Below are positions 45,549-60,720 of a stretch of DNA of 64,000 bases, piece by piece. This DNA is from Prauserella cavernicola (GTDB lineage Bacteria > Actinomycetota > Actinomycetes > Mycobacteriales > Pseudonocardiaceae), in the NCBI RefSeq assembly GCF_016595675.1, contig NZ_JAENJH010000001.1:62001-126000 (forward strand), given 5' to 3'. Below the pieces are notes generated by a model. The model saw only the letters and a list, made by a program, of their open reading frames with translations. It was not told the DNA's origin and searched no databases. The position numbers and the translations under genes are program-made. The stretch's first letter is position 1. Each line of letters begins with the position of its first letter.

Positions 45549-46250
45549 GTCTCTCCTTCGAACCGCGGCATCCACCCTCGCAGTCGCGCCCGCCCGGGGC
45601 CTAGGGCCGTTCGTCCCTATCCACGCCCACCCGGCCGGAATGCGACCGCGGTGGTGGGTATTGCCGTAAATTCCCGAGGCGGGGAGCGGTCGATGTGGAC
45701 AGTTCGAAAAAACCACAGTGGATGCGGAGCGGACCAATTCCGGCCGCGCGCCGGTGTTCGCGCTGCTCGGCGAGGCGCGGGGCCGCAGTGGGGAAGACTT
45801 GACGCAGTATACCCGTTTCCCGGTTGAGCGTGACCACTTCGTTAACACATTTCACCGCTGCGAAAGTTCGCTCGCTCGGCCTCCGGAAAACTGTTGCGCG
45901 CACCAGCCCGGAAATAAGATCATGGTCGGTGAAACTCGGTAGCCGGAATAATGGTGGGGCTCGCCGGAGCAACCGCCGTCGCCGGATATCGCGGTGCCGA
46001 CCGGGGCGCGAGGAGAGTTGCCCGTAGTCGCGGCACTGACAGACAATGGTGTCTTCCAAGCTCAGACGCTCGGAGCGCCGGCCGAACGGGACGAGGCGGA
46101 TCGTATGGACGCGCTCGGCGAGATCCACCCAGGACAGGACACCAGGGTCACGGTGGTCCAGTACCTGCGGCCCGTTCCCGCGTCGTCCCCTCCGGACGGC
46201 ACCGCGAGGGCGCCGCTCACCCGGAGCCCTGTCTCGTGTTGGAGGCGTGC
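45549..46250. other. 702-bp gap upstream of the hopanoid operon
   Basis: No gene could be supported. The stretch around 45800-45960 is less GC-rich than its surroundings and has several promoter-like pieces (TTGACG at 45799; TTGCGC at 45894 with TAAGAT at 45915), none convincing. Between 45994 and 46254 one plus-strand and one minus-strand frame are both open with plausible composition, and I cannot choose between them. The hopanoid promoter presumably lies here. Confidence 0.5.
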
Positions 46251-47114
46251 TTGACATCCGCGCACTCACCGGTCCGGGACCGCGCCGCACTGCGGGGCGT
46301 GCTTGCCAAGGCCCACAGCGAGAACTTCCCGGTCGCGCTGCGGCTGCTCCCCTCCGCGCAACGCGCTCATCTGCTCGCGCTGTACGGCTTCGCCCGGATG
46401 GTCGACGACCTCGGCGACGAGGCCCAGGGCGACCGGCCCTGGCTGCTGGACGAGGTGTCGCGGGACCTCGGGCGGATCTACACGGGCGCGCCGCCCGACG
46501 GTGAGCTGTACCAGCGCCTCGCCACCACGGTCTACGCGTGCGGGCTGCCGCGCGCACCGTTCGAGCACCTCGTCGAGGCGGGCCGACGGGACCAGACCTC
46601 CCATCGCTACGGCACCTTCGACGAGCTGCGCTCCTACTGCGCGCTGTCCGCGGAACCCGTGGGGCGACTGGTGCTCGGGGTGTTCGGCGTCGCGACACCG
46701 GAGCGCGCCCGGCTGTCGGATCTCGTCTGCTGCGCGCTGCAGGTGCTGGAGCACTGTCAGGACGTCGTCGAGGACGCCAGGGCGGGGCGGATCTACCTGC
46801 CCGCCGAGGATCTGCGCCGTTTCGGCGTCGCTGAGCGCGATCTGCTGGCCCCTCGCGCGACCCGGGAGGTACGCGCGCTCGTCGGCTTCGAGGTGCAGCG
46901 GGCCGTGGCGTTGCTCGACGAGGGAGCGGCGCTGGTGGCCACGTTGCGCGGCGCGGCGAGGGTCGCCGTCGCCGGATACGTCGCGGGCGGGCGGGCCACC
47001 GCGGTGGCGCTGGCCGAGGCGGGGTTCGACGTCCTCGCCGCGACGCCAAGACCCACGCGGGCACGCACGGCCGCCGAAGCGGGGCGGCTGCTGGTGAAAG
47101 GCGGTGCGCGATGA
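46251..47114 (+). CDS. hpnC: squalene synthase-like HpnC (hydroxysqualene synthase)
   Basis: A 287-residue prenyl-synthase-fold enzyme. The two acidic motifs are ARMVDDLGDEA and CQDVVEDARAGRIYLP, and ENFPVALRLLPSAQRAHLLALYGFAR is characteristic of HpnC. In the three-step bacterial route HpnC turns presqualene diphosphate into hydroxysqualene. I chose TTG 46251 since GGAGG lies 5 bp upstream; GTG 46236 is possible. First gene of the hopanoid operon; it overlaps hpnD by ATGA. Confidence 0.9.
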   Translation: MTSAHSPVRDRAALRGVLAKAHSENFPVALRLLPSAQRAHLLALYGFARMVDDLGDEAQGDRPWLLDEVSRDLGRIYTGAPPDGELYQRLATTVYACGLPRAPFEHLVEAGRRDQTSHRYGTFDELRSYCALSAEPVGRLVLGVFGVATPERARLSDLVCCALQVLEHCQDVVEDARAGRIYLPAEDLRRFGVAERDLLAPRATREVRALVGFEVQRAVALLDEGAALVATLRGAARVAVAGYVAGGRATAVALAEAGFDVLAATPRPTRARTAAEAGRLLVKGGAR

Positions 47115-47968
47115 TCGTGACCGAGGCCTACGCGGAGTGTGAGCGGATCACCCGGCGGCAGGCGCGCAACTTCTCCTACGGCATCCGGCTGCTGCCGCCG
47201 CCCCGCCGCAGGGGGCTCAGCGCGGTGTACGCGTTCGCGCGGCGCATCGACGACATCGGCGACGGTGAGCTCTCCCGCGAGGTGAAGCTGGAGGAGCTGG
47301 AGAACGCGCGCAAGCAGCTGCACTCCCTCGACGAGCCCGGTGACGATCCCGTCCTCGTCGCGCTGGCCGACGCGGCGTGGCGTTTCGCGCTGCCGCTGAC
47401 GGCGTTCGACGAGCTGATCGACGGCTGTCGCGCCGACGTGCTGGGCACCCGCTACGAGACCTTCGCCGAGCTGCACCACTACTGCCGCTGCGTCGCCGGG
47501 TCGATCGGCAGGCTCTCGCTCGCGGTGTTCGGCAGCACGAACCGGGCTCGTGACGAGCGGCTGGCCGACGACCTCGGCACCGCGTTGCAGCTCACCAACA
47601 TCCTGCGCGACGTGCTGGAGGACCGGCGCGCGGGCCGGATCTACGTGCCGGGCGAGGAGCTGCGCAGGTTCGGGTGCACGCTCGACCTCGACGACACCGG
47701 CGCGCTCGCCGATCCGCCCGAGGCACTGCTGCCGCTACTCGAGTACCAGGCGGCCAGGGCGGAGGAGTGGTACGCCAGCGGGCTGCGGTTGCTGGCGTCT
47801 CTCGACCGGCGCAGCCGCGCGTGCTGCGCCGCGATGGCGGGCATCTACCACCGGCTGCTGCGCCGGATGGCGTTGCGGCCCGCGCTCGTGCTGCGTGGCC
47901 GGACCTCCTTGCCGGACTGGGAGAAGCTCGTGGTCGCCGCGAGAGCACTGGCCGGGGCACGGCCATGA
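47111..47968 (+). CDS. hpnD: presqualene diphosphate synthase HpnD
   Basis: A 285-residue enzyme that condenses two farnesyl diphosphates to presqualene diphosphate. Motifs: ARRIDDIGDGE (first acidic motif) and LTNILRDVLEDRRAGRIYVPGEEL (second), with QARNFSYGIRLLPPPRRRGLSAVYAFARRIDD at the N-terminus. It overlaps hpnC at the start and hpnE at the end by 4 bp. It supplies the substrate for HpnC. Confidence 0.92.
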   Translation: MIVTEAYAECERITRRQARNFSYGIRLLPPPRRRGLSAVYAFARRIDDIGDGELSREVKLEELENARKQLHSLDEPGDDPVLVALADAAWRFALPLTAFDELIDGCRADVLGTRYETFAELHHYCRCVAGSIGRLSLAVFGSTNRARDERLADDLGTALQLTNILRDVLEDRRAGRIYVPGEELRRFGCTLDLDDTGALADPPEALLPLLEYQAARAEEWYASGLRLLASLDRRSRACCAAMAGIYHRLLRRMALRPALVLRGRTSLPDWEKLVVAARALAGARP

Positions 47969-49302
47969 CGGGGCGGGTGGTCGTCGTCGGAGGCGGGCTG
48001 GCCGGGCTCACCGCCGCGTGCGACCTCGCCGACGCGGGGTTTCGGGTGACACTGCTGGAGTCGCGCAGCAGACTCGGGGGCGCCACGTTCTCGTTCCGGC
48101 GCGACGGTCTCGTGGTGGACAACGGGCAGCACGTGCTGTTGCGCTGCTGCACCGAGTACCGGGCGCTGCTGGAGCGGCTCGGCACCACGGAGGGAATCGA
48201 CCTGCAGGACCGGTTCCGGATGCCGGTGTTGCTGGCGGACGGGCGGCTCACCGGGCTCGGCCGGACCTCGGCGCCCGCGCCGCTGCACCTCGTGCCGGGG
48301 CTCGCACGCTACGGAGCGCTGTCGCCGGCCGACCGGATGCGCGTGGTGCGCGCCGCCGCCGCGCTGCGGCTGCTCGACCCCGACGACCCCGCCCTCGACG
48401 AGCAGAGCTTCGGCGACTGGCTCACCCGCCACGGCCAGAACAGTGCCACGTTGTCGGCGCTGTGGAACCTGATCTCGGTGGCGGCGCTCAACTGTGACGC
48501 GCACGAGGCCTCGCTCGCACTGGCGGTCACGGTGTTTCGCACGGCGCTGCTCGACCGCGCCGACGGCGCCGACATCGGCGTGCCCCGGTGGCCGCTGGAG
48601 GACCTGCACGTCCGCCCCGCCGAGAAGTACCTGATCGCGCGCGGCGCCGAGATCCGGCTGCGCAGCGCGGTGCGGGCGGTGGAGCGCGGGCGCAGCGGGT
48701 TCACCGTGCGGCTCGACGACGAGAACCTGCCCGCTGACGCCGTCGTGGTCGCCGCACCGCCCGACGCCGCCGCGCGGATGTGCCCCGACGCCGCGGGCGT
48801 CTCGGCCGCCCGGTTGTCCGGGCTCGGCGCCGCGCCGATCGTGAACGTGCACGCCGTCTTCGAGCGGCCCGTCACCGATCTGCCCTTCGCCGCGACCGTC
48901 GGCTCCCCGGCACAGTGGATCTTCGACCGGACCGAGGTCGCCGGGCTCACCGAGGGGCAGTACCTGGCCGTGTCGCTGTCGGCGGCGCGGACGTGGCTGG
49001 ACGCGCCCGCGCCGGTGCTGCGCGAGGTGTTCCTGGCCGAGCTCGGCAGGCTGCTGCCCGCCGCCGCGGCCACCCCCTGCACACAGTTCTTCGTCACCCG
49101 CGAACGGCGGGCCACCTTCCGGCAGGCGCCGGGCACGGGGCGGCTGCGCCCCCGGCCGGAGACCCGGCTGCCCGGGCTCGTGCTCGCCGGGTCGTGGACC
49201 GCCACCGGGTGGCCCGACACGATGGAGGGTGCCGTGCGAAGCGGACACCGAGCGGCCGATCTCGTCCGGGACAGAGCCCGAGCCGGAGGTGGTGCCGGGT
49301 GA
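47965..49302 (+). CDS. hpnE: hydroxysqualene dehydroxylase HpnE (FAD-dependent)
   Basis: A 445-residue flavoprotein of the amine-oxidase/phytoene-desaturase group. The N-terminal dinucleotide motif is VVVVGGGLAGLTAACDLADAGFRVTLLESR, and a C-terminal FAD-binding block ends GLVLAGSWTATGWPDTMEGAVRSG. It reduces hydroxysqualene to squalene. Start ATG 47965 overlaps hpnD. Its stop overlaps the prenyl synthase GTG start. Confidence 0.92.
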   Translation: MTGRVVVVGGGLAGLTAACDLADAGFRVTLLESRSRLGGATFSFRRDGLVVDNGQHVLLRCCTEYRALLERLGTTEGIDLQDRFRMPVLLADGRLTGLGRTSAPAPLHLVPGLARYGALSPADRMRVVRAAAALRLLDPDDPALDEQSFGDWLTRHGQNSATLSALWNLISVAALNCDAHEASLALAVTVFRTALLDRADGADIGVPRWPLEDLHVRPAEKYLIARGAEIRLRSAVRAVERGRSGFTVRLDDENLPADAVVVAAPPDAAARMCPDAAGVSAARLSGLGAAPIVNVHAVFERPVTDLPFAATVGSPAQWIFDRTEVAGLTEGQYLAVSLSAARTWLDAPAPVLREVFLAELGRLLPAAAATPCTQFFVTRERRATFRQAPGTGRLRPRPETRLPGLVLAGSWTATGWPDTMEGAVRSGHRAADLVRDRARAGGGAG

Positions 49303-50309
49303 CCGCGACGCTGCCCGCCGAGGTCACCGCGACCCAGGTCCTCGTCCAGCCCGCGCTGCGGGAGGCCGTGGACCGGTTGCGGCCACCGATGCGCCGCCTC
49401 GTCACCTATCACCTCGGCTGGACCGACGAACGGGGTCACGCCGTCGACGGCGGTGACGGCGGCAAGGCCCTGCGGCCCGCGATCGCGTTGCTCGCCGCGG
49501 AGGCGGTGCGGGTGAGCCCGGAGGCCGCGCTGCCCGGCGCCGTGGCGGTCGAACTGGTGCACAACTTCTCGCTGCTGCACGACGACGTGATGGACGGCGA
49601 CCTCGAACGCAGGCACCGGCCCACGGTGTGGCGCCAGTTCGGTACCCCGGCCGCGATCCTGGCGGGCGACGCGCTGCTCACGCTCGCCATGGACGTACTG
49701 GACCGGGCCGCCGACCCCGCCGCGACGCGCTGCCTCACCACCACGGTGCAGGACCTGATCGTGGGCCAGAGCCAGGACGTCGAGTTCGAGCAGCGGGTGG
49801 ACGTCAGCGTGGCGGAGTGCCTGGAGATGGCCGAGGGCAAGACCGCGGCGCTCATGCGCTGTGCCGCCGAGGTCGGGGCACTGCTCGGCAGGGCGAGCCC
49901 GGTCGCGGCGGAGCTGCTCGCCGAGTTCGGCCGCTGCCTCGGCATGGCGTTCCAGCTCGTCGACGACCTGCTCGGCATCCGCGGGCACCCCGAGGTCACC
50001 GGAAAACCGGTGCTGGCCGATCTGCGGATACGCAAGAAGTCGGTGCCCGTCGTCGCCGCGCTCGGCTCCGGAACCGCGGACGCCGCGGTGCTGCGGGAGC
50101 TGTACCGGCGACCCGAGCCACCCACCGAGGAGGAGCTTCGCACGATGGCACAGCTGATCGAGCGCTCCGGTGCGCTGGACTGGACTCGCGACCGGGCACA
50201 GGGCTACGTCGCCGAGGCGCGCGCGTGCCTCGACCGGCTCGGCCCGCCCGTCCCCATCCACGCCGCGCTGAGCGAGCTCACGCGCTTCGTCGTGGAGCGG
50301 GACCGATGA
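49299..50309 (+). CDS. polyprenyl diphosphate synthase (farnesyl/geranylgeranyl type)
   Basis: A 336-residue trans-prenyl synthase. First Asp-rich motif D95-D-V-M-D99 in HNFSLLHDDVMDGD; second region LVDDLLGIRG (D222-D223) where the last Asp is Gly, a form common in actinobacterial GGPP/FPP synthases. Inside the hopanoid operon its most economical job is making farnesyl diphosphate for HpnD. Product length cannot be read with certainty. GTG start in the hpnE stop; ATGA overlap with shc. Confidence 0.9.
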   Translation: MTATLPAEVTATQVLVQPALREAVDRLRPPMRRLVTYHLGWTDERGHAVDGGDGGKALRPAIALLAAEAVRVSPEAALPGAVAVELVHNFSLLHDDVMDGDLERRHRPTVWRQFGTPAAILAGDALLTLAMDVLDRAADPAATRCLTTTVQDLIVGQSQDVEFEQRVDVSVAECLEMAEGKTAALMRCAAEVGALLGRASPVAAELLAEFGRCLGMAFQLVDDLLGIRGHPEVTGKPVLADLRIRKKSVPVVAALGSGTADAAVLRELYRRPEPPTEEELRTMAQLIERSGALDWTRDRAQGYVAEARACLDRLGPPVPIHAALSELTRFVVERDR

Positions 50310-52216
50310 GCGGGCTCGCCACGCGCGCGTCCGCGCCCGCCGTGGCCCGCGTGGCGGCCGGGAAGGCCCGCGAGTACCTGCTGTCCCTGCAGCACGGCCA
50401 GGGCTGGTGGAAGGGCGAGCTCGAGACCAACGTGACGATGGACGCCGAGGACCTGATGCTGCGGCGCTTCCTCGGCATCCTCGACGAGCCGACGCTGGCC
50501 GAGTCGGCGCGCTGGATCCGGTCGTGTCAGCGCGAGGACGGCACGTGGGCCACCTTCCACGGCGGGCCCGGCGACCTGTCCACCACCGTCGAGGCCTACG
50601 TCGCGCTGCGCCTGGCCGGCGACGATCCCGAGTCACCGCACCTGCACCGCGCGCGCGAGTTCGTGCTCGCCGAGGGCGGGCTCGAGGCCACCCGGGTCTT
50701 CACGCGAATCTGGCTGGCGCTGTTCGGCGAGTGGTCGTGGGACGAGCTGCCCGTGCTGCCGCCGGAGCTGGTGCTGCTGCCGGACTGGTTCCCGCTCAAC
50801 ATCTACGACTGGGCGTGCTGGGCACGCCAGACCGTGGTGCCGTTGACCGTCGTCGCCGCCGCGCGGCCGCGCAGGGCGCTCGGTGTGAGCGTGGCCGAAC
50901 TGCGCACGGGCAGGCCCTCACCGGAACCGGCGTCCCCGCTCAGCTGGGCTGGCGCGTTCCAGCGGCTCGACGGTGTGCTGCACGCGTTCGAACGCCTTCC
51001 GGTGAAGCCGTTGCGAGGGCTCGCTCTCCATCGCGCCGAACGCTGGATCCTCGACCGGCAGGAGGCCGACGGTGGCTGGGGCGGTATCCAGCCGCCGTGG
51101 GTGTACTCGATCCTCGCGCTGAGCCTGCGCGGCTACGACACCGACCACCCAGTGCTGCGCAAGGCACTCGACGGGCTCGACGGGTTCACGGTTCGTGAGC
51201 GCACACCGCGGGGCATGGTGCGCAGGCTCGAGGCGTGCCAGTCGCCGGTGTGGGACACCGCACTCGCGATGATCGCCCTGCTCGACTCTGGCCTGCCGCC
51301 GGACGACCCCGCGCTGGTGCGTGCCGCGGACTGGATGATGGCCGAGGAGATCCGCGGCGCCGGTGACTGGCAGGTGCGCAGGCCGTCGCTGCGGCCGTCC
51401 GGCTGGGCGTTCGAGTTCGCCAACGACCACTACCCGGACACCGACGACACCGCGGAGGTCGTGCTCGGCCTCCAGCGCGTGGCCCACCCCGAGCGAGCCC
51501 GGCATGCCGCGGTACTCGAGCGTGCGGTGGAGTGGACGGCGGGCATGCAGTCGCGCGACGGCGGCTGGGGCGCCTTCGACGCCGACAACACCAGGACACT
51601 GCCGGAGAAGCTGCCGTTCTGCGACTTCGGCGCCGTGATCGACCCGCCGTCGGCCGATGTCACCGCCCACGTGGTGGAGATGCTCGCCGCGAGAGGGCAG
51701 GCGAACGGGGTCGCCGCGCAGCGGGGGGTGCGGTGGCTGCTGCGGCACCAGGAACGGGACGGTTCGTGGTTCGGGCGCTGGGGCGCCAACCACGTCTACG
51801 GCACCGGTGCCGTGGTGCCCGCGCTCGTGGCGTGCGGGATCGAGCCGGGCCATTCTGCGATCCGGGCGGCGCTGGACTGGCTGGCGCGGCACCAGAACGC
51901 GGACGGCGGCTGGGGTGAGGATCTGCGGTCCTATGTGGATCCAGAATGGGTCGGCCGCGGTGAGTCGACGGCGTCGCAGACGGCGTGGGCGCTGCTGGCA
52001 TTTCTGGCCGCGGGGGAGCGCGGCGAGGCCGTGACGCGCGGCGTCGAGTGGCTCGCCCGTACCCAGCGCGAGGACGGCGGCTGGGACGAGCCGCAGTTCA
52101 CCGGCACCGGCTTTCCCGGCGACTTCTACATCAACTACCACCTGTACCGGCTCGTCTTCCCGCTCACGGCGCTCGGGCGATACGTGGAGGTGACCAGCGA
52201 TGACCACACCGGATGA
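50306..52216 (+). CDS. shc: squalene-hopene cyclase
   Basis: A 636-residue triterpene cyclase. The catalytic acid motif is D378-T-D-D381-T-A. Several QW repeats are visible ([39 protein letters not shown]), as is [13 protein letters not shown]. It cyclises squalene to hopene at the membrane as a monotopic protein. Length and motif positions agree with characterised Shc enzymes. It overlaps the prenyl synthase by 4 bp and the HpnG-IspH gene by 17 bp. Confidence 0.95.
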
Positions 52217-53711
52217 CGACCTGATCGTCGTTTCTCCGCTGCTGCTGGAGGCCCTCAGCGTCCGCCGTGGACTGTCCGGGGGCCGCGTCGTGCTCGCGGG
52301 CCCGCACGCGCGCCGCTCGTCGCGGGTGGCCCGAGCCCTGCGGCAGTACCCGGACCGGCCGGTGGCCGTCGCGGGGGTGGCCGGGGCGCTGGTGCACGAC
52401 CTCAAGCCGGGGGATCTCGTGGTGGCCAGCGAGGTGCGCTCCGCGCAGGGGACCCACCACTGCCGCTCGGCGCCACTGGTCGCGGCGCAGCTGCGCGCAC
52501 TGGGCCTGACCGTCCACGTCGGACCAATGGTGGAGACCGACCACGTCGTGTGGCAGCCGGAGGGTGCGCGGCTCGCGCTCGACGGCGCGATCGCCGTGGA
52601 CATGGAGTCGTCGCGGCTGCTCGACCTGATCGGCTCGCGGCCGGCGGCCGTGGTGCGGGCGGTGGTGGACACGCCCACCCGGTCGCTGCTGCACCCCGCG
52701 ACCGTGCCCGGCGGGATCGCGGCGTTGCGCTCGCTGCGCGCCATCGGCCCCGCGCTGCACCGGTGGGCGGCCGCGACGGGCGACCGCGACGTGCTGCTGG
52801 CGGGACCGCGCTCGTTCTGCGCCGGGGTGGAGCGTGCGGTGGAGATCGTGGAGCGGCTGCTCGACCGGCACGCCCCGCCCGTCTACGTCCGCAAGCAGAT
52901 CGTGCACAACTCCCGGGTGGTGGGTGACCTCGAACGCCGGGGCGCGGTGTTCGTCGACGAGCTCGACGAGGTGCCCGAGAACGCGACGGTGGTGTTCTCG
53001 GCACACGGGGTCTCACCCGCGGTGCGGGACGAGGCGGACGAACGCGGTCTCGACGTGGTGGACGCTACCTGCCCGCTCGTGGCCAAGGTGCACGGCGAGG
53101 CTCGGCGCTACGCCCGCGACGGCGACACCGTGTTCCTCATCGGCCACGCCGGACACGAGGAGGTGGAGGGCACCCTCGGCGAGGCCCCCGACCGCACCGT
53201 GCTCGTCGAACGGCCCGAGGACGTCGCCGGGCTCGAGGTGGAGGACCCCGGCCGGGTCTCCTACCTCATGCAGACCACGCTCGCGCTGGACGAGGCGGAG
53301 GAGGTCGCGGACGCGCTGCGCGACCGCTTCCCAGCCTTGCGGGGGCCGGGTTCCGACGACATCTGCTACGCCACCACCAACCGGCAGGACGCGGTGCGGG
53401 CGGTGGCGCGCGAGTCGGAGCTCGTGCTCGTGGCGGGTTCGGCCAACTCGTCGAACTCGCGCCGACTCGTGGAAGTGGCGCAGCGGGAGGGCACCAGGGC
53501 CTACCTGGTGGACAGCGTGCACGAGATCGACCTCGCATGGCTGGCGGGTGTCCGAACCATCGGACTGTCCGCCGGAGCGTCGGCACCGACAGTGCTGGTG
53601 GACGAGATCGTCGACGCGTTGGCCGGTCTCGGAGCGGTGGAGGCGAGGGAGCGCACCACCGCGACCGAAACCGTGAACTTCAGCCTTCCCAAGGAGGTGC
53701 GTCACCGATGA
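52200..53711 (+). CDS. fusion of HpnG-like nucleosidase/phosphorylase and IspH (HMBPP reductase)
   Basis: A 503-residue two-domain protein. Residues 1 to about 193 resemble HpnG-type purine nucleosidase/phosphorylase: [25 protein letters not shown] and the nucleosidase motif [12 protein letters not shown]. HpnG removes adenine from adenosylhopane. Residues about 196-500 are IspH with all three iron-sulfur Cys (C207 in [10 protein letters not shown]291 in [12 protein letters not shown]389 in CYATTNRQ) and the catalytic Glu E321 in GHEEVEGT. IspH makes IPP and DMAPP, the operon's precursors. The join is in frame with no internal stop. GGAGGTG precedes ATG 52200; the stop overlaps hpnH. Confidence 0.88.
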
Positions 53712-54718
53712 ACATGCCCCTGCACCAGGCGGTGCGCGTGGCGAGGCACGTCGTGACCCAGAAACTGCGCGGCCGCGACAAGTTCCCGTTCATCATGGAG
53801 CTCGAACCGATCCTGGCCTGCAACCTCAAGTGCGGCGGCTGCGGCAAGATCCAGCACCCCGCGAACATCCTCAAACAGCGGATGCCCGTGGAACAGGCCG
53901 TCGCCGCCGTCGAGGAGGCCGGCGCGCCGATGGTGTCGATCGCCGGTGGCGAACCGCTGATGCACCCCGACATCGACCGGATGGTCAACGAGCTCGTCAA
54001 GCGCAAGAAGTACGTGTTCCTGTGCACCAATGCCGTGCTGCTGCGCAAGAAACTCGACAAGCTCGATCTGAAGCCGTCGAAGTACTTCGCGTTCACCGTG
54101 CACCTCGACGGCCTGCGTGAGCGGCACGACGCGGCTGTGGCGAAGGAAGGGGTGTTCGACGAGGCGGTGGCGGCCATCCGCGAGGTGAAGCGGCGGGGCT
54201 TCCGCGTCACGACCAACACGACGGTGTTCAACACCGACACCCCGCAGAGCGTGATCGACGTGCTCGACTACCTCAACGACGAGCTCGAGATCGACTCGCT
54301 GATGCTCTCGCCCGCCTACGCCTACGAGAAGGCGCCCGACCAGGAGCACTTCCTCGGCGTGCAGGAGACCAGGGAGCTGTTCCGCAAGACCTTCGCGGGC
54401 GGCAACCGGAAGCGGTGGCGGCTCGTGCACTCGCCGCTGTTCCTGGACTTCCTCGAGGGCAAGGTCGACTTCGAGTGCACGGCGTGGGGCGTGCCGCTCT
54501 ACACGCTGTTCGGCTGGCAGAAGCCGTGTTACCTGATGAGCGACGGGTATGTGCAGACGTACCGGGAGCTGGTGGAGACCACCGAGTGGGAGCGGTACGG
54601 GCGGGGGCGGGACGCGCGCTGCGCCAACTGCATGGCGCACTGCGGCTACGAACCCACGTCGGTCCTCGCGACGATGAGCTCGTTGAAGGAGTCGATCAGA
54701 GCGGCCAGGGAAACGTAA
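53708..54718 (+). CDS. hpnH: adenosyl-hopene transferase HpnH (radical SAM)
   Basis: A 336-residue radical SAM protein with cluster motif C38-N-L-K-C42-G-G-C45, followed by [14 protein letters not shown] and a C-terminal Cys-containing tail [16 protein letters not shown]. It joins the 5'-deoxyadenosyl group to hopene, the first step of C35 hopanoid side-chain formation. Last gene of the operon; the second 21-bp repeat array starts 25 bp after its stop. It acts just before the HpnG step. Confidence 0.95.
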
Positions 54719-54742
54719 TCCCCGACCCGCGCGCTGGTAACC

Positions 54743-55341
54743 CGCGAGTCCCCCGCTCAGGCGCGCGAGTCCCGCGTTCGGGCGCGCGAGTTGCCCGCTC
54801 AGGCGCGCGAGTTGCCCGCTCCGGCACGCGAGTTGCCCGCTCGGGCGCGCGAGTCGCGCGTTCGGGCGCGCGAGTTGCCCCCTCCGGACCGGCAGGGCGG
54901 CGGCCGGACCCGCGTAGTCCGCTCTCGTCGGCGTCTGCCGGTCCCAGCGCGGCCTACGGGCCGGCCCGCGAACTTCTGCTCGAACTCGCGGGTCGGCCAT
55001 GCCGGATATCGCAGTCCGCTCGTGCGTTCCTGTCCAGCCGCGCGGGACTGGGCGGATCGTGGTCCGGCACGGAAGCTTGCGCACCCGACGGGCATTGCGC
55101 GCGGGAGTAGGGAGCTCGCGGTCTGGAACGCAGGGCTCGCAGTCCTGGGTGCAGGACTCGCGGGCCGGAGTGCGGGACTCGCGCTCTTGAGTAGGTGACT
55201 CGCGCTCTTGAGTGGGGGACTCGCGTGCTGGAGTGCAGGACTCGCGGTCTTGAGTGGGGGACTCGCGTGCTGGAGCGGGGGACTCGCGCACCGGAGCGGG
55301 GGACTCGCGCAGCCGGGCGCAGGGCTCGCGGGTCCTCGTGC
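54743..55341. repeat. inverted array of 21-bp units between convergent genes (array 2)
   Basis: The left arm has seven 21-bp units starting at 54743, 54764, 54785, 54806, 54827, 54848 and 54869, core CGCGAGT(T/C)(G/C)CCC. The right arm has ten units starting every 21 bp from 55132 to 55321, core GGGGGACTCGCG or close variants, plus a decayed one before. Between them 54890-55131 is less regular. The best left core CGCGAGTCCCCC is the exact complement of the right core, so each strand can fold onto itself. It fills the gap between hpnH and the convergent SDR gene. The period is exactly two helical turns. Open frames here show a heptapeptide period and are artefacts. Confidence 0.87.
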
Positions 55342-55353
55342 ACGGCTTGTCCG

Positions 55354-56094
55354 TTACGTTGTTCGGCGTTGGAGGGCGTCCGTGACGGTGGGGGCCACGC
55401 CGCGCAGGCGCGCGGGCAGCCGCAGCCAGCGGGGCACGAACACCTGCGACCGGTTCCGCTCCGCCGCGGCCACCAGCGCGGCCGCCACTCGCTCCGGCGG
55501 CACCGGCCGCGGCACCCGCCGCGCGTACGGCGAGCCGCGGCGCGCGAAGAACGGCGTGTCCACCACACCCGGCACCACGATCGTCACCCCCACGCCCCGG
55601 CCGGCGACCTCGCCCCGCACACTCGCTCCGAGCGCGTCGAGCCCGGCCTTGGTCGCCGAGTACACCGCCTCGCCCGCCACGCTCATGCTGCCCGCGATCG
55701 ATGACACGAGCACGATCTGCCCGCGCCCGCGCGCCAGCATCCCCGGCAGCGCCGCGCGCACGAGCAGCATCGGCGCGAGCAGGTTCACGCGCACCAGGTC
55801 GCCGACGCGCTCCTCCGGCATGACCTCCAACGGGCCGGACCAGCCGACACCCGCGTTGCACACCAGCAGGTCCACCTCACCGGCCTCGGCCAGCACGCGA
55901 TCCGCCGCGCCGGGCGAGGTGAGGTCCGCGGCGCAGCACCGGGCGCCGGTGCGCCGCGCGATGTCCGCCAGCGCGTCGGTGTCGCGACCCACCGCCAGCA
56001 CGTCGCACCCGCGGCCCGCCAGCCGCTCCGCCGTGGCGGCGCCGATGCCGGACGAACCCCCGGTCACCACCGCCGTCGTTCCCGCTCCGAACAC
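55354..56094 (-). CDS. SDR family oxidoreductase
   Basis: A 246-residue short-chain dehydrogenase: cofactor motif TGGSSGIG, NAGVGW, catalytic S and YSATK (AVYSATKAGLDAL). The GTG at 56094 lies behind GGAGGAGG, inside the end of the DMT gene (31-bp overlap), so the two are coupled. In this operon it could modify a lipid or sugar-lipid head group, but no direct sign of substrate is visible. Confidence 0.88.
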   Translation of the reverse strand: MFGAGTTAVVTGGSSGIGAATAERLAGRGCDVLAVGRDTDALADIARRTGARCCAADLTSPGAADRVLAEAGEVDLLVCNAGVGWSGPLEVMPEERVGDLVRVNLLAPMLLVRAALPGMLARGRGQIVLVSSIAGSMSVAGEAVYSATKAGLDALGASVRGEVAGRGVGVTIVVPGVVDTPFFARRGSPYARRVPRPVPPERVAAALVAAAERNRSQVFVPRWLRLPARLRGVAPTVTDALQRRTT

Positions 56095-57026
56095 GCCTCC
56101 TCCTCCACCGGACTCCCCGGGCTCACCGGGCTCGCCACAGTCTCCGCGGCCTCCGGAATGCTCACCTGCGGTGCCCGCTGGCTGAGCAGCGCGATTCCCG
56201 CGATCGCCACCGCCAGCGCCAGCACCTGCCCCGCGATCGGCCCCCCGCCACCGGGCAGCCGCTCGCCGAGCCACAGTGATCCGACCCCGATGCTGATCAG
56301 CGGGTCGAGCGCCACGATCACCGCGAGCGCTGGTGCGAGCGCCACCCCGACCCGGAACGCGTTCTGGCTCAACAGGAAACCGGTCACGCCGCACACCACC
56401 ACGACGTAGAAGTGCCAGTGCGTCAACAGCGCCGCGACACCGCGTCGCAGGTCGTCGGCGGCGAGTTTCGTGACACCCGCGGTGACGCCGTACAGCACGC
56501 CGGTGGCGGTGGCCAGGGCCATCACCCGCGCCCGGCCCGTGCACCGGATGGCCACGCCCACCGCCGCGGCGATCAGCACCGCGAGCCCGGCCGCGAGCGG
56601 CAGGACCTCGCCCAGCTCCAGCCGCCCGTGCCCGGCCTTCGGCCTGGCCACGAGGAAGAACGCCGCGAGACCGGCGACGCACAGCGTGGCACCGAGCAGC
56701 ACCATCCCGTCGGGCCGTTCCCGCCTCAGCGCGCTGCTGCTGAACACCGCGAACACCAGCGAGGTCACCAACAGCGGCTGCACGAACACCAGCGGCGCCG
56801 CGCTCAGCGCCAGCCACTGGAACACGATGCCCAGCGCGTTGGCCAGCAGCGACACCAGCCACAGCGGTTGCCGCAGCAGTGCGAACACGAGTCCCCAGCG
56901 CACGGGTCCGCCGCCGGGGACGCGCCGCGCGGCCCGGTGCTGCAGCGCGCCGGTGAGCCCGAACGCGGCGGCGGCCAGGATCGCGGCGGGCACCGCGACC
57001 TCGAGGGCCGTGTCCCCGCCGGTCAT
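56064..57026 (-). CDS. DMT superfamily (EamA-like) transporter
   Basis: A 320-residue membrane protein with about nine to ten hydrophobic segments in two repeats (PLVFVQPLLVTSLVFAVFSS in the first half, ALAPALAVIVALDPLISIGVGSLWLGERL in the second), typical of drug/metabolite transporters. The last 35 residues are hydrophilic and acidic. It overlaps the glycosyltransferase-acyltransferase gene by 4 bp (ATGA) and the SDR by 31 bp. It might move a lipid or precursor made by the fusion enzyme; that is inference. Confidence 0.85.
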   Translation of the reverse strand: MTGGDTALEVAVPAAILAAAAFGLTGALQHRAARRVPGGGPVRWGLVFALLRQPLWLVSLLANALGIVFQWLALSAAPLVFVQPLLVTSLVFAVFSSSALRRERPDGMVLLGATLCVAGLAAFFLVARPKAGHGRLELGEVLPLAAGLAVLIAAAVGVAIRCTGRARVMALATATGVLYGVTAGVTKLAADDLRRGVAALLTHWHFYVVVVCGVTGFLLSQNAFRVGVALAPALAVIVALDPLISIGVGSLWLGERLPGGGGPIAGQVLALAVAIAGIALLSQRAPQVSIPEAAETVASPVSPGSPVEEEACSERERRRW

Positions 57027-59410
57027 GGTCCCGCGCGGGCACCGGCCAGCTCGGCGAAGACGGCGTCGGTGTGCGCGGCGATGCGGTCGACGAGCTCCGC
57101 CTGCTCGGGAGTGCCGGTGAACACCATCGTCACCCAGTGGCCCCACGTCATGGCGCCCCACGCGAGGCCGCTGCCGGGCGCCAGGGCCAGTACGGGATAG
57201 GCCTCCGACATCACCGAGCCGTGCCAGCGGATCTCGCGGCGCGGCCCTGGCATCACCGTGCCGATCGCGTTGAACCAGTCGCCGCGGTAGACGGCCCGCG
57301 CGGCGCGGGCGTGCAGCCGGGGCGGGAACCTGCCGATGAGCCGGATCACGGCGTGCGCGGCCTCGGGCACTCCGGCGTCGATGCGCTCCCGGAGCGCGGC
57401 GGACACCAGCGTGGCCCGTCGCTCGAGCGGCAGGGGGCCGATCGGCAGGTCCACCGACACGGCGCCGGTGTGGTTGCCCGCCGCGCGCATACTGCCCGTC
57501 CGGCGCAGCGACCACGGAGCCATGAGCCGGAACCGCGCACCGTCGCGCGCGCCGAGGACGTCGTGCACGGCGTCGGCGAACACCGCCTTGACCAGGTCGG
57601 CGGGTGCGACGCCGAGTGAGCGGGCCGCCTGCCTGACCTGCCTGCCGGGCAGCCGCAGCAGGGCGTGGTGCCTGCGCGGACCGGTGATCGCCACGTCGAG
57701 CGGGGTCGCTGGTGCCCTGCCCGCGCGCGCCAGCCGCCACAGGCCGTGGGCGAGTAGTCGTGGTGCGGGCCGGAAAACGTTGCCGCCCAACGGAGTCCGT
57801 GGCTGAATCGCCCACGACAGTCCCGTAGTGGTGTCGGTGTCGGACAGTAGCGACTGCATCACGGTCAGGCCGTCGCCGAGTGCGTGGTGCAGTTTGACGA
57901 GCAGGGCGCGCCGCTGTCCGGGTAGCCCGGTGACGAGCCGTCCGGCACCGGCCGCGCGGGTGGTGTCGAGCGGCAGCGAGAAGAACTCGTCGACGGCGGC
58001 GGCGAGGTCCGCCGAGACCACCTCGTCCACCAGGGACAGCGGATCGGCCCGCTCGCCCGGATCCCACCGGGCCCGCCGGGTGAGCGTCGCGGGCACCAGC
58101 CTGCCGTCGATGCCGGGCACCGCGGCGAGCATGCCCGCGGCGTCCTTGCGCGACAACGGCGGCCCGGCCTCGAACACGAGGGCGGTGCCGACGTACTGGG
58201 GGACGGCCTCGGTGCCCGCGTGCAGGAACAGCGCGTCGGGCGAGGCGAGCGGGCGCGGCCTCGTCGTCGCGGGCAGGTTCGCGAAGTTCCGCAGATCCTC
58301 GTCGAGACCGCGTTGCGTGACGTATGCGCGGGCCGCGTCCTCCAGGCCACGCCGCAGCGCGGGCCGCGCCGCGAACTCGCGGACGGTGCGGGCGAGCGAG
58401 CCGGGCTCCGCGCACACCCTGGCCAGGCCGGCCTCGGCCAGCAGCCGCGCGTTGGCCCTGCCGTGGCCCGCGATCGGCTCGTGCAGCAGCACGGCGCGTC
58501 CGCAGGCGAGCGCCTCGAGCGCGGTCGCGCCACCCGCGTTGGTCACGACCAGATCGGCGGCCGTCAGCAGTGTGGCCATGTCGTCGACCCAGCCGAGCAC
58601 CGTGACCCGCTGGTCGCCGGCGAACTCGCGCGTGAGCCGGACGCGCAGGCGCGCGTTGTGCCCGGCCGCCACGACCACACCGGCGCTGGGATCGCCGCCG
58701 AGCACCTCGCGCACCGTGTCACCGGGAGCCCCGAAGGCGAGCGAACCGCACGAGACCACGGTGAGCGGCCCGGAGGGGGCCAGCCCGAGCCGTTCGCGGG
58801 CGGCCGTCCGGTCACCGGGGGAGAAGCCGGGCGGTACCGGGGGAGCCGACACGGCCACGCGCGCGCCGGGCACGCTGCGCCGTGCCGGTTCCGCGGCCAC
58901 CTCGTGCATCACCAGGTTCACGCTCACGCCCTCGTGCACCCACGACGGGTGCGGTGCGATGTCGGAGACCCACGCGGCGGTCGGTACCGACAGCCCGCGA
59001 TGGCGCCGCAGCCACTCGAGTCCGGTGGTACCCAGCGGGTAGGTCGAGACGATCGCGTCGGGGCGCGCGGCATCGAGGACGCCTGCGAGCCGCCGTCCGC
59101 TCCACGCGCCGATCACCCGCTTGGCGGCCTTCGCGAACCACCGGTGATGCCACAGCGACGCGTAGAAGAACTCGTAGAGCCACGGCAACCGTCGCACGGC
59201 CGTCGCGTAGATCCAGCGGAACACCGGGCCCGTGCCGCGCCCCATGGCGTCCAGCACGTCGACCCACTGCACGTCGATGCCCGGCCAGATCCGTCGCGCG
59301 GCGGCCTCCAGAGCGCGTCCGGTCGCGTGATGGCCCTCGCCCATGGTCGCCGACACGATCAGCAGCCGGGCGGGCCCGTTCGCCTCCGGATTCGCGCTCG
59401 TCGTCACCAC
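57023..59410 (-). CDS. fusion of MGDG-synthase/GT28-type glycosyltransferase and WS/DGAT acyltransferase
   Basis: A 795-residue two-enzyme chain. Residues about 15-375 are a GT-B glycosyltransferase of the MGDG-synthase/MurG type: SATMGEGHHATGRALEAAARRIWPG at the start, a donor-binding half with TNAGGATALEALACGRAVLLHEPIAGH. Residues about 385-795 are a wax ester synthase/diacylglycerol acyltransferase domain with SPDALFLHAGTEAVPQYVGTALVFE and the catalytic motif H508-H-A-L-G-D513-G (HHxxxDG). No membrane span is obvious. Such a chain could glycosylate a lipid and acylate it or its sugar. It heads an operon with a DMT transporter and SDR, convergent to the hopanoid operon. Each domain is confident; the joint product is unknown. 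Confidence 0.87.
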   Translation of the reverse strand: MVTTSANPEANGPARLLIVSATMGEGHHATGRALEAAARRIWPGIDVQWVDVLDAMGRGTGPVFRWIYATAVRRLPWLYEFFYASLWHHRWFAKAAKRVIGAWSGRRLAGVLDAARPDAIVSTYPLGTTGLEWLRRHRGLSVPTAAWVSDIAPHPSWVHEGVSVNLVMHEVAAEPARRSVPGARVAVSAPPVPPGFSPGDRTAARERLGLAPSGPLTVVSCGSLAFGAPGDTVREVLGGDPSAGVVVAAGHNARLRVRLTREFAGDQRVTVLGWVDDMATLLTAADLVVTNAGGATALEALACGRAVLLHEPIAGHGRANARLLAEAGLARVCAEPGSLARTVREFAARPALRRGLEDAARAYVTQRGLDEDLRNFANLPATTRPRPLASPDALFLHAGTEAVPQYVGTALVFEAGPPLSRKDAAGMLAAVPGIDGRLVPATLTRRARWDPGERADPLSLVDEVVSADLAAAVDEFFSLPLDTTRAAGAGRLVTGLPGQRRALLVKLHHALGDGLTVMQSLLSDTDTTTGLSWAIQPRTPLGGNVFRPAPRLLAHGLWRLARAGRAPATPLDVAITGPRRHHALLRLPGRQVRQAARSLGVAPADLVKAVFADAVHDVLGARDGARFRLMAPWSLRRTGSMRAAGNHTGAVSVDLPIGPLPLERRATLVSAALRERIDAGVPEAAHAVIRLIGRFPPRLHARAARAVYRGDWFNAIGTVMPGPRREIRWHGSVMSEAYPVLALAPGSGLAWGAMTWGHWVTMVFTGTPEQAELVDRIAAHTDAVFAELAGARAGP

Positions 59411-59496: not shown

Positions 59497-60720
59497 TCAG
59501 TGCTGGTGTCTGCGCGCCAGGAGCCCGAGGGTGAGCAGCAGCCGGTCGCGCGGTTCGCCGACCTTGCGCCCGGTGGCCGACTCGATCCGCTGCAGCCGGT
59601 AGATCACCGTGTTGCGGTGGCAGTACAGCCGCTGCGCGGCGTGGGTGGGGGAGCCGCCGCTGTCGATCATCGCCTCGAGCGTCTTGAACATCGTCTCCCG
59701 CTCGGGCTCGGGCAGGTCGAGCAGTTCGCGGAAGGCGACCTGCTGCAGCCGCGGCGTCAGGTGCGGGTTGCCGACGAGCAAGGCTTCGGGCAGCCGGTCG
59801 TCGAGGAACGCGACGCCGGGCTCGCGAAGGGTCCGCGCCGCTGTCTGGGCCAGCGTGTAGGCGTCGCCGACCTCGGCGAGCCGGTGCACCACGGGCGAGG
59901 CACCCGCGCGGCCGCACACGGCGGGGGCCAGCGCGTCGAGCACGGCGGCGGGCGCGCGATCGCCGAGCACGACCAGCCCCACGATGTCGGAGGGCCGCAC
60001 GTGCCACGACGACACGATTCCGTGGCAGGCCAGTACATCGCGCGGTGAGCGCAGCGGATCGTCACGAGGGGAGTCCACGGGGGCCACGACGCACAGCATC
60101 GGGCCGCTCGTCGGCAGTCCCAGTGCCGTCGCGGCCTCCTCGGCGAGCGCTGGATCGCCGCCGCGGCCCTCCAGCAGGGCGTTGAGGAACGCGTGCCGCC
60201 TGCTCAGTTCCTGGCTGCGCAGCCGAGCCTCCTCGAGCCGGTAGGCGTCGACCAGCGCCGAGGAGCTGGAGTCGATCACGCGCCAGACGTGGCCCGCCGC
60301 GTCGAGCAGCGCGTGGTCGTAGTACCCGCCGAACCGTTCGCGCGAGGTCTGGAGCAGGCCCTCCCATATGACCCGGCCCCCGAGCTGGTAGGCGCGCAGC
60401 ACCGCCTCCAGCGGCACGCGCTGGCGGGCGCGGAGCTTGCCCGTCTCGCGGGAGGTGTCCTGCGGGTCCTCGCCGACGGGCACGGTCTCGCCGAGCGACT
60501 GCAGCCCGCGTTCGATGTTGCCGCGCAGGCTCTCGCGCAGGTCGTCGGGAGCGGAGATCCCCAGCTGCGCGTAGGCCGGTTCCCGCTGCAGCACGATGAT
60601 CGTCAGCCGGTCGGCGAGAGCCTCGAGGTTGCCGAGCAGCACCCGGCTCAGTGTGTGCAGCGCATCCCGCGCGGGCTCGGGGCAGTCGAGCGCTCCGGTG
60701 CCCTCGGCCGAGGGTCTCAT
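59497..60720 (-). CDS. PucR/CdaR-type transcriptional regulator
   Basis: A 407-residue regulator. An N-terminal RsbRD-like segment (about 20-165), a middle GGDEF-like/CdaR region, and a C-terminal PucR helix-turn-helix (about 340-405) with MIDSGGSPTHAAQRLYCHRNTVIYRLQRIESATGR. ATG 60720 is used; an upstream extension looks unnatural. It diverges from the liv operon and probably controls it, perhaps also the following fusion gene, 86 bp downstream on the same strand. Confidence 0.87.
   Translation of the reverse strand: MRPSAEGTGALDCPEPARDALHTLSRVLLGNLEALADRLTIIVLQREPAYAQLGISAPDDLRESLRGNIERGLQSLGETVPVGEDPQDTSRETGKLRARQRVPLEAVLRAYQLGGRVIWEGLLQTSRERFGGYYDHALLDAAGHVWRVIDSSSSALVDAYRLEEARLRSQELSRRHAFLNALLEGRGGDPALAEEAATALGLPTSGPMLCVVAPVDSPRDDPLRSPRDVLACHGIVSSWHVRPSDIVGLVVLGDRAPAAVLDALAPAVCGRAGASPVVHRLAEVGDAYTLAQTAARTLREPGVAFLDDRLPEALLVGNPHLTPRLQQVAFRELLDLPEPERETMFKTLEAMIDSGGSPTHAAQRLYCHRNTVIYRLQRIESATGRKVGEPRDRLLLTLGLLARRHQH

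Follow-up and report, generated by a model that had tools for sequence, protein, structure and literature searches.

A 64,000-nucleotide stretch of the genome of the soil bacterium Prauserella cavernicola (contig NZ_JAENJH010000001.1, positions 62,001 to 126,000; hereafter the window) carries on its minus strand, at 57023..59410, a gene in which a GT28/MGDG-synthase-like glycosyltransferase (GT) is fused to an acyltransferase of the wax ester synthase/diacylglycerol acyltransferase (WS/DGAT) superfamily. On balance, the encoded protein is probably a bifunctional hopanoid-tailoring enzyme whose product would be an acylated hopanoid glycoside. Hopanoids are sterol-like lipids of bacteria. The N-terminal GT-B domain would use a nucleotide-sugar to glycosylate a polyol hopanoid, for instance bacteriohopanetetrol, and the C-terminal WS/DGAT domain would use acyl-CoA, the donor usual in its family, to acylate a hydroxyl on either the sugar or the hopanoid side chain. 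The adjacent DMT-family protein is a candidate flippase that could move the acylated or glycosylated product across the membrane. We infer the acceptor, the sugar, the acyl donor, the order of the steps, the flipping and any benefit of the fusion. A first-pass annotation of the window had named both an acylated hopanoid glycoside and a glycosylated acylglycerol as candidate products; linkage and co-occurrence favour the former, and the latter is less favoured.

The union of a GT and a WS/DGAT in one chain, as proposed in that annotation, was confirmed. A single open frame encodes 795 residues, and four Pfam domains scored above their cut-offs in the order MGDG_synth (PF06925; residues 31-192, 38.5 bits versus 25), Glyco_tran_28_C (PF04101; residues 218-335, 30.8 bits versus 22), WS_DGAT_cat (PF03007; residues 388-521, 40.3 bits versus 23.6) and WS_DGAT_C (PF06974; residues 645-788, 35.4 bits versus 20.7). 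The GT half, with a GT-B fold, comprises residues ~6-370 (58301..59395) and the WS/DGAT half residues ~380-795 (57026..58273). The MGDG_synth match is the only one in the host genome. The WS_DGAT_cat match is confined to positions 1-149 of the 263-position profile and is the weakest of the seven in the host genome. The protein stayed below the full-length NCBIfam cut-off for the WS/DGAT subfamily TIGR02946 (134.7 versus 309.95 bits) and below the UgtP equivalog cut-offs (NF010135, 109.2 versus 500 bits; NF010134, 57.6 versus 557 bits). The closest solved proteins were UgtP (9wde, 1.1e-20) and MGD1 (4wyi, 9.1e-16) for the GT half, and the WS/DGATs 6chj (1.3e-6) and 7nxg for the acyl half, which by its sequence is a divergent branch of the WS/DGAT superfamily.

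The same architecture was searched for in relatives, a check that had been suggested at the outset with absence to be read as an artefact. A fusion was counted where a single match ran across both halves or two matches fell within one frame; all fused frames were fetched and their domains checked in one stop-free frame, while the frames of lone GTs were checked only in part. Of 249 genomes of the host order, 18 encode the fused protein; they represent 8 of 69 genera and, by the family codes used, 4 families. It also occurs in the named genomes of Prauserella endophytica and P. flavalba (81%) and of Saccharopolyspora sp. HNM0986 (41%). Among 396 genomes sampled from the phylum, with two candidates scored per genome, it appeared in the host's own genome only, and none of the plasmid records covered 80% of the fusion query. 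The fusion is genuine and conserved. An assembly or frame artefact, in favour of which nothing was found, is ruled out for all practical purposes by the stop-free fused frame in the 18 genomes and the three named ones.

Of the 249 genomes of the order, 43 have a match above the cut-off to the squalene-hopene cyclase model TIGR01507. All 18 genomes with the fusion have the cyclase, and the fusion was present in none of the 206 genomes without a cyclase above the cut-off (hypergeometric probability of 5e-16, with kinship ignored). In each of the 18, fusion and cyclase are separated by 3.2-6.2 kb. The fusion is convergent with the hopanoid operon in most loci, divergent in one (L046) and in the same direction in another (L065). 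Because it has been rearranged and is still adjacent, which is better evidence than one inherited gene order, the link to hopanoids is strengthened. Chance closeness of GT and WS genes was rejected in a small control of 12 GT loci outside the hopanoid loci (L041-L045, L062-L064 and L072-L075; stretches of 6 to 19 kb), none of which had a WS gene.

In addition to the window, stretches of up to 19 kb covering the hopanoid loci of the 43 genomes were read, some of them truncated by contig ends. Eighteen loci had the GT–WS fusion, two a WS gene with a GT remnant, seven a PAP2_3–WS/DGAT gene, two a lone GT and 14 neither half. Such an acyltransferase therefore stands beside the hopanoid operon at 27 of the 43 loci (18 plus 2 plus 7). 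In the two loci with an eroded GT (L059 and L061), Pfam finds no GT domain. The PAP2_3–WS/DGAT frames, of 650-700 residues, join a PAP2_3 membrane domain to the acyltransferase and were identified by Pfam in L068, L069 and L071 and by our own profiles in L077, L078, L079 and L093. The simple gene caller used truncated some genes at the start; it also overlooked the PAP2_3–WS frame of L093, and a stop-to-stop scan recovered it. In a tree of the WS domains, the WS halves of the GT–WS fusions grouped with the two GT-less WS proteins (100/99) and the PAP2_3–WS proteins formed their own group (96/92). Both fusion types together separated (98/97) from seven ordinary WS/DGATs, five of them from the host genome; the ordinary enzymes are this few because the sequences were collected as relatives of the window protein or of hopene cyclase. 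The acyl half accompanies the hopanoid operon whether or not a GT is present, and its most likely acceptor is therefore a hopanoid. The host genome also holds a PAP2_3–WS gene distant from the hopanoid locus, on contig C90 (L097, 8237-9814), with a short WS part that has no HHxxxDG motif.

Relatives of the GT half above 200 bits were found only in cyclase-bearing genomes, even when separate from the WS half, and for this reason the GT half most likely glycosylates a hopanoid. One genus has lone GTs (L062-L064) that nest in the fused group of the GT tree beside L046 (99/96), a position most simply explained by loss of the acyl half. At the hopanoid locus, these three genomes carry a PAP2_3–WS gene in place of the fusion. 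The lone GTs of two hopanoid loci, L083 and L091, which are accompanied by two DMT genes and a short-chain dehydrogenase/reductase (SDR) gene, fall in a distant GT group, so that GTs seem to have arrived at hopanoid loci at least twice. The tree program warned of long branches, and L065, L083 and L091 are placed with uncertainty. The GT tree omits L042 (identical to L031), L044 (gene broken in two pieces) and L061 (remnant); the fused-frame check and both trees omit L007-L030, which duplicate the window or loci that were fetched again in longer form.

The parting of the halves in evolution, with the GT eroded in L059 and L061 and free of a WS half in L062-L064, would also fit two separate reactions in one chain, with a hopanoid as substrate of the WS/DGAT half, a different lipid as substrate of the GT half, and co-expression or co-localisation as the purpose of the fusion. 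We regard this as unlikely, given that the close GT relatives are confined to cyclase-bearing genomes and that the distant lone GTs of L083 and L091 are at hopanoid loci too. Hopanoid acylation and hopanoid glycosylation by one protein would together yield the acylated hopanoid glycoside that we propose.

Several observations weigh against this proposal. Neither half was found at 14 of the 43 hopanoid loci in the stretch read; in one of these, L080, a GT lies ~11 kb from the cyclase. The split-off GT is away from the hopanoid locus in three genomes, and the placement of L065 differs between the GT tree and the WS tree. The 18 fused genomes include seven from one genus and five from another, so that the co-occurrence figure overstates their independence. 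The pairing of DMT and GT genes is not exclusive, as eight of the 14 hopanoid loci that lack both halves have weaker DMT matches (65-163 bits). Finally, the nearest characterised GTs use diacylglycerol, and the nearest WS/DGATs produce storage lipids.

The claim of an intact HHxxxDG motif was borne out: the acyl half has HHALGDG at residues 508-514 (57869..57889, minus strand), and the motif is kept in all 21 fused rows. The donor-binding motif of the GT half, also described as intact, is so only in its NAGGxTxxEA part; the GQExxN loop of UgtP and MGD1 is replaced by GHGRAN. As the histidine of this loop is shared by all 42 related GT rows shown, fused or unfused, the sugar may differ from that of the characterised UgtP/MGD1-type enzymes. 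Compared with the two Prauserella copies, the ratio of nonsynonymous to synonymous substitution rates (dN/dS) was 0.22-0.24 for each half, indicating purifying selection on both. An AlphaFold2 model built from eight sequences had a mean predicted local distance difference test score (pLDDT) of 62.3; the GT half was modelled well and the acyl half badly, with a pLDDT below 50 across residues 368-459, 508-577 and 710-746. Substrate channelling, as proposed in the first-pass annotation, is not supported, the model being poor over the acyl half. The first Foldseek match of the model was MGD1 (4wyi; E 1.2e-13, TM-score 0.73 by target). The partial WS_DGAT_cat match and the deviating donor loop could point to one half being catalytically dead and merely anchoring or regulating the other; the conserved HHxxxDG motif and the similar purifying selection on both halves make this improbable.

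The kinship of the GT half with UgtP and MGD1, its closest solved relatives, and its assignment to the Pfam family MGDG_synth are what a glycosylated acylglycerol would lead one to expect. In that case the GT half would work as UgtP or MGD1 do, the WS/DGAT half would add an acyl group, and the hopanoid operon would be a neighbour since the two lipids share a membrane. Against it stand the restriction of the fusion to cyclase-bearing genomes, an adjacency that survives rearrangement, the presence of the WS half at hopanoid loci even without the GT (L059, L061 and the seven PAP2_3–WS loci) and the altered GQExxN loop. We therefore hold a glycosylated acylglycerol to be a rather unlikely product.

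The fusion gene is probably cotranscribed with two genes on the same strand, because these overlap by 4 and 7 bases. The DMT-family membrane protein, the candidate flippase, is encoded at 56064..57026 (NF038012, 82.6 bits versus a cut-off of 50) and shares 4 bases with the fusion gene; as called, the SDR gene at 55354..56070 and the DMT gene have 7 bases in common. The operon of fusion, transporter and SDR outlined in the first-pass annotation agrees with the overlapping genes on one strand. A promoter scan gave no sigma-70-like sites, and terminator-like sites numbered 1 versus 0.6 expected. The DMT gene is present at 21 of 21 fused loci, absent from the two loci with an eroded GT, and located beside the split-off GT in L062-L064. 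The SDR was found at 19 of 21 fused loci and at both GT-less WS loci, at none of the seven PAP2_3–WS loci, and, among the 16 loci where the GT is alone or both halves are missing, at six (L080, L083, L084, L088, L091 and L092). One guess is that it acts as a hopanoid side-chain reductase; a role general to all C35 hopanoids is disfavoured by its absence from the seven PAP2_3–WS loci. Upstream of the fusion on the same strand lies a PucR-type regulator gene (59497..60720; HTH_30 and GGDEF_2 domains), relatives of which adjoin the WS gene in L039, L059 and L061. A separate PAP2 gene stands beside the GT–WS fusion in L057 (10395-11048), with members of the same cluster in L058 and L060. At 7050-11247 of L065, a further, unfused GT gene from the same family is back to back with the fusion.

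The hopanoid operon of the window (46236-54718, plus strand) begins with HpnC (46236..47114; 271.5 bits, cut-off 250.45), HpnD (47111..47968; 288.3 bits, cut-off 278.6) and HpnE (47965..49302; 433.7 bits, cut-off 283.05). These are followed by a polyprenyl diphosphate synthase (49299..50309), the squalene-hopene cyclase (50306..52216; TIGR01507, 752.7 bits, cut-off 431.1), an HpnG-like domain fused to IspH (52200..53711; IspH above its cut-off, HpnG with 60.1 bits below its cut-off of 187.1) and, as last gene, the adenosylhopane synthase HpnH (53708..54718; 509.4 bits, cut-off 225.05). Glycosylation and acylation of a terpenoid are known for carotenoids, and HpnC, HpnD and HpnE are similar to carotenoid enzymes; on these grounds a carotenoid or other polyprenoid glycosyl ester was considered as the product. 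It appears very improbable, as the neighbouring genes pass the cut-offs for HpnC, HpnD, HpnE, HpnH and hopene cyclase and stay below those for CrtB and CrtI.

Some further features of the operon were recorded. The polyprenyl synthase scored 411.8 bits to a "family 2 encapsulin cargo" model, slightly below the cut-off of 450. The single-frame fusion of an HpnG-like nucleoside phosphorylase and IspH recurs in many of the hopanoid loci fetched. Outside the window, on host contig C11 (L099, 15442-17811), IspH and polyprenyl synthase each have a second gene; the two are neighbours and lie several kb from an ordinary WS/DGAT. A small membrane protein, its copies forming one cluster, adjoins HpnH at 10 fused loci (L040, L048-L053, L055, L056 and L065); the L055 copy matches the VC0807 family with 91.2 bits.

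The two operons had been described as lying head to head. This was wrong: the fusion operon on the minus strand converges with the hopanoid operon on the plus strand, and a head-to-head layout as a sign of co-regulation is thereby ruled out. The gap between the operons (54719-55353) contains two arrays of 21-base tandem repeats in opposite orientation, at 54743-54884 and ~55110-55330. As RNA, the gap folds far better than 20 shuffled versions (z -20.9), and a 16-base core pattern has 18 occurrences in the genome compared with one for the reversed control.

Taken over the whole order, the loci tentatively suggest a hopanoid-tailoring system in which a hopanoid-specific WS/DGAT branch would be combined either with a GT28 domain, giving acylated glycosides, or with a PAP2_3 domain, in which case a phosphate group would be removed or transferred and acylated hopanoids would result. 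The DMT flippase would be tied to the glycosyl branch, and the SDR would perhaps act on the side chain. If our reading of the fusion is true, acylated hopanoid glycosides gain a marker gene, the WS/DGAT superfamily acquires a new role, and the contribution of such caps to membranes can be addressed directly. Relatives in which the GT was lost (L059 and L061), split off (L062-L064) or replaced by PAP2_3 (seven genomes) offer natural controls without genetics. In the open-access literature searched, no description of such an acyltransferase at hopanoid loci was found, although an earlier account elsewhere is possible, and no paper there combined hopanoid with wax ester synthase and glycosyltransferase, or hopanoid with Prauserella. 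The parts belong to known superfamilies; their combination and its tie to the hopanoid locus appear new within that literature.

The fusion shares with MGD1 and UgtP (GT28; PF06925 plus PF04101) the domain content, the GT-B fold and membership in a family of lipid glycosyltransferases. It differs from them in the joined acyltransferase, the GHGRAN loop, the hopanoid gene neighbourhood and scores below the full-length NCBIfam cut-offs. With the WS/DGATs (TIGR02946; 6chj, 7nxg) it has in common HHxxxDG and both Pfam domains, whereas it stays below the subfamily cut-off, clusters with the PAP2_3–WS proteins and carries a GT domain. The proteins HpnI, HpnJ and HpnK form the route to glucosaminyl-bacteriohopanetetrol, and HpnI belongs to a GT family other than GT28. 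The fusion would likewise put a sugar on a C35 hopanoid, with a GT that is GT28-like; none of the 23 genomes tested had an HpnI match (TIGR03472) above its cut-off, and the fusion gene was not among the places listed. The enzymes behind cholesteryl acyl-glycosides are unfused and come from other protein families. A table of PMC10383236 names such lipids from Helicobacter and Borrelia, together with bacteriohopanetetrol cyclitol ethers; the acyl-glycosides too are polycyclic lipids that are glycosylated and acylated, but on a host-derived sterol. Ribosylhopane of Streptomyces coelicolor is mentioned in PMC10301674. According to PMC8537080, hopanoid side chains can bear sugars and be acylated, and N-acylglucosaminyl-bacteriohopanetetrol occurs in Alicyclobacillus. 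In this compound the acyl group is an amide on the sugar, the host is a Firmicute and the passages on it name no enzymes, but it carries both a sugar and an acyl group on a hopanoid and so belongs to the product class predicted for the fusion.

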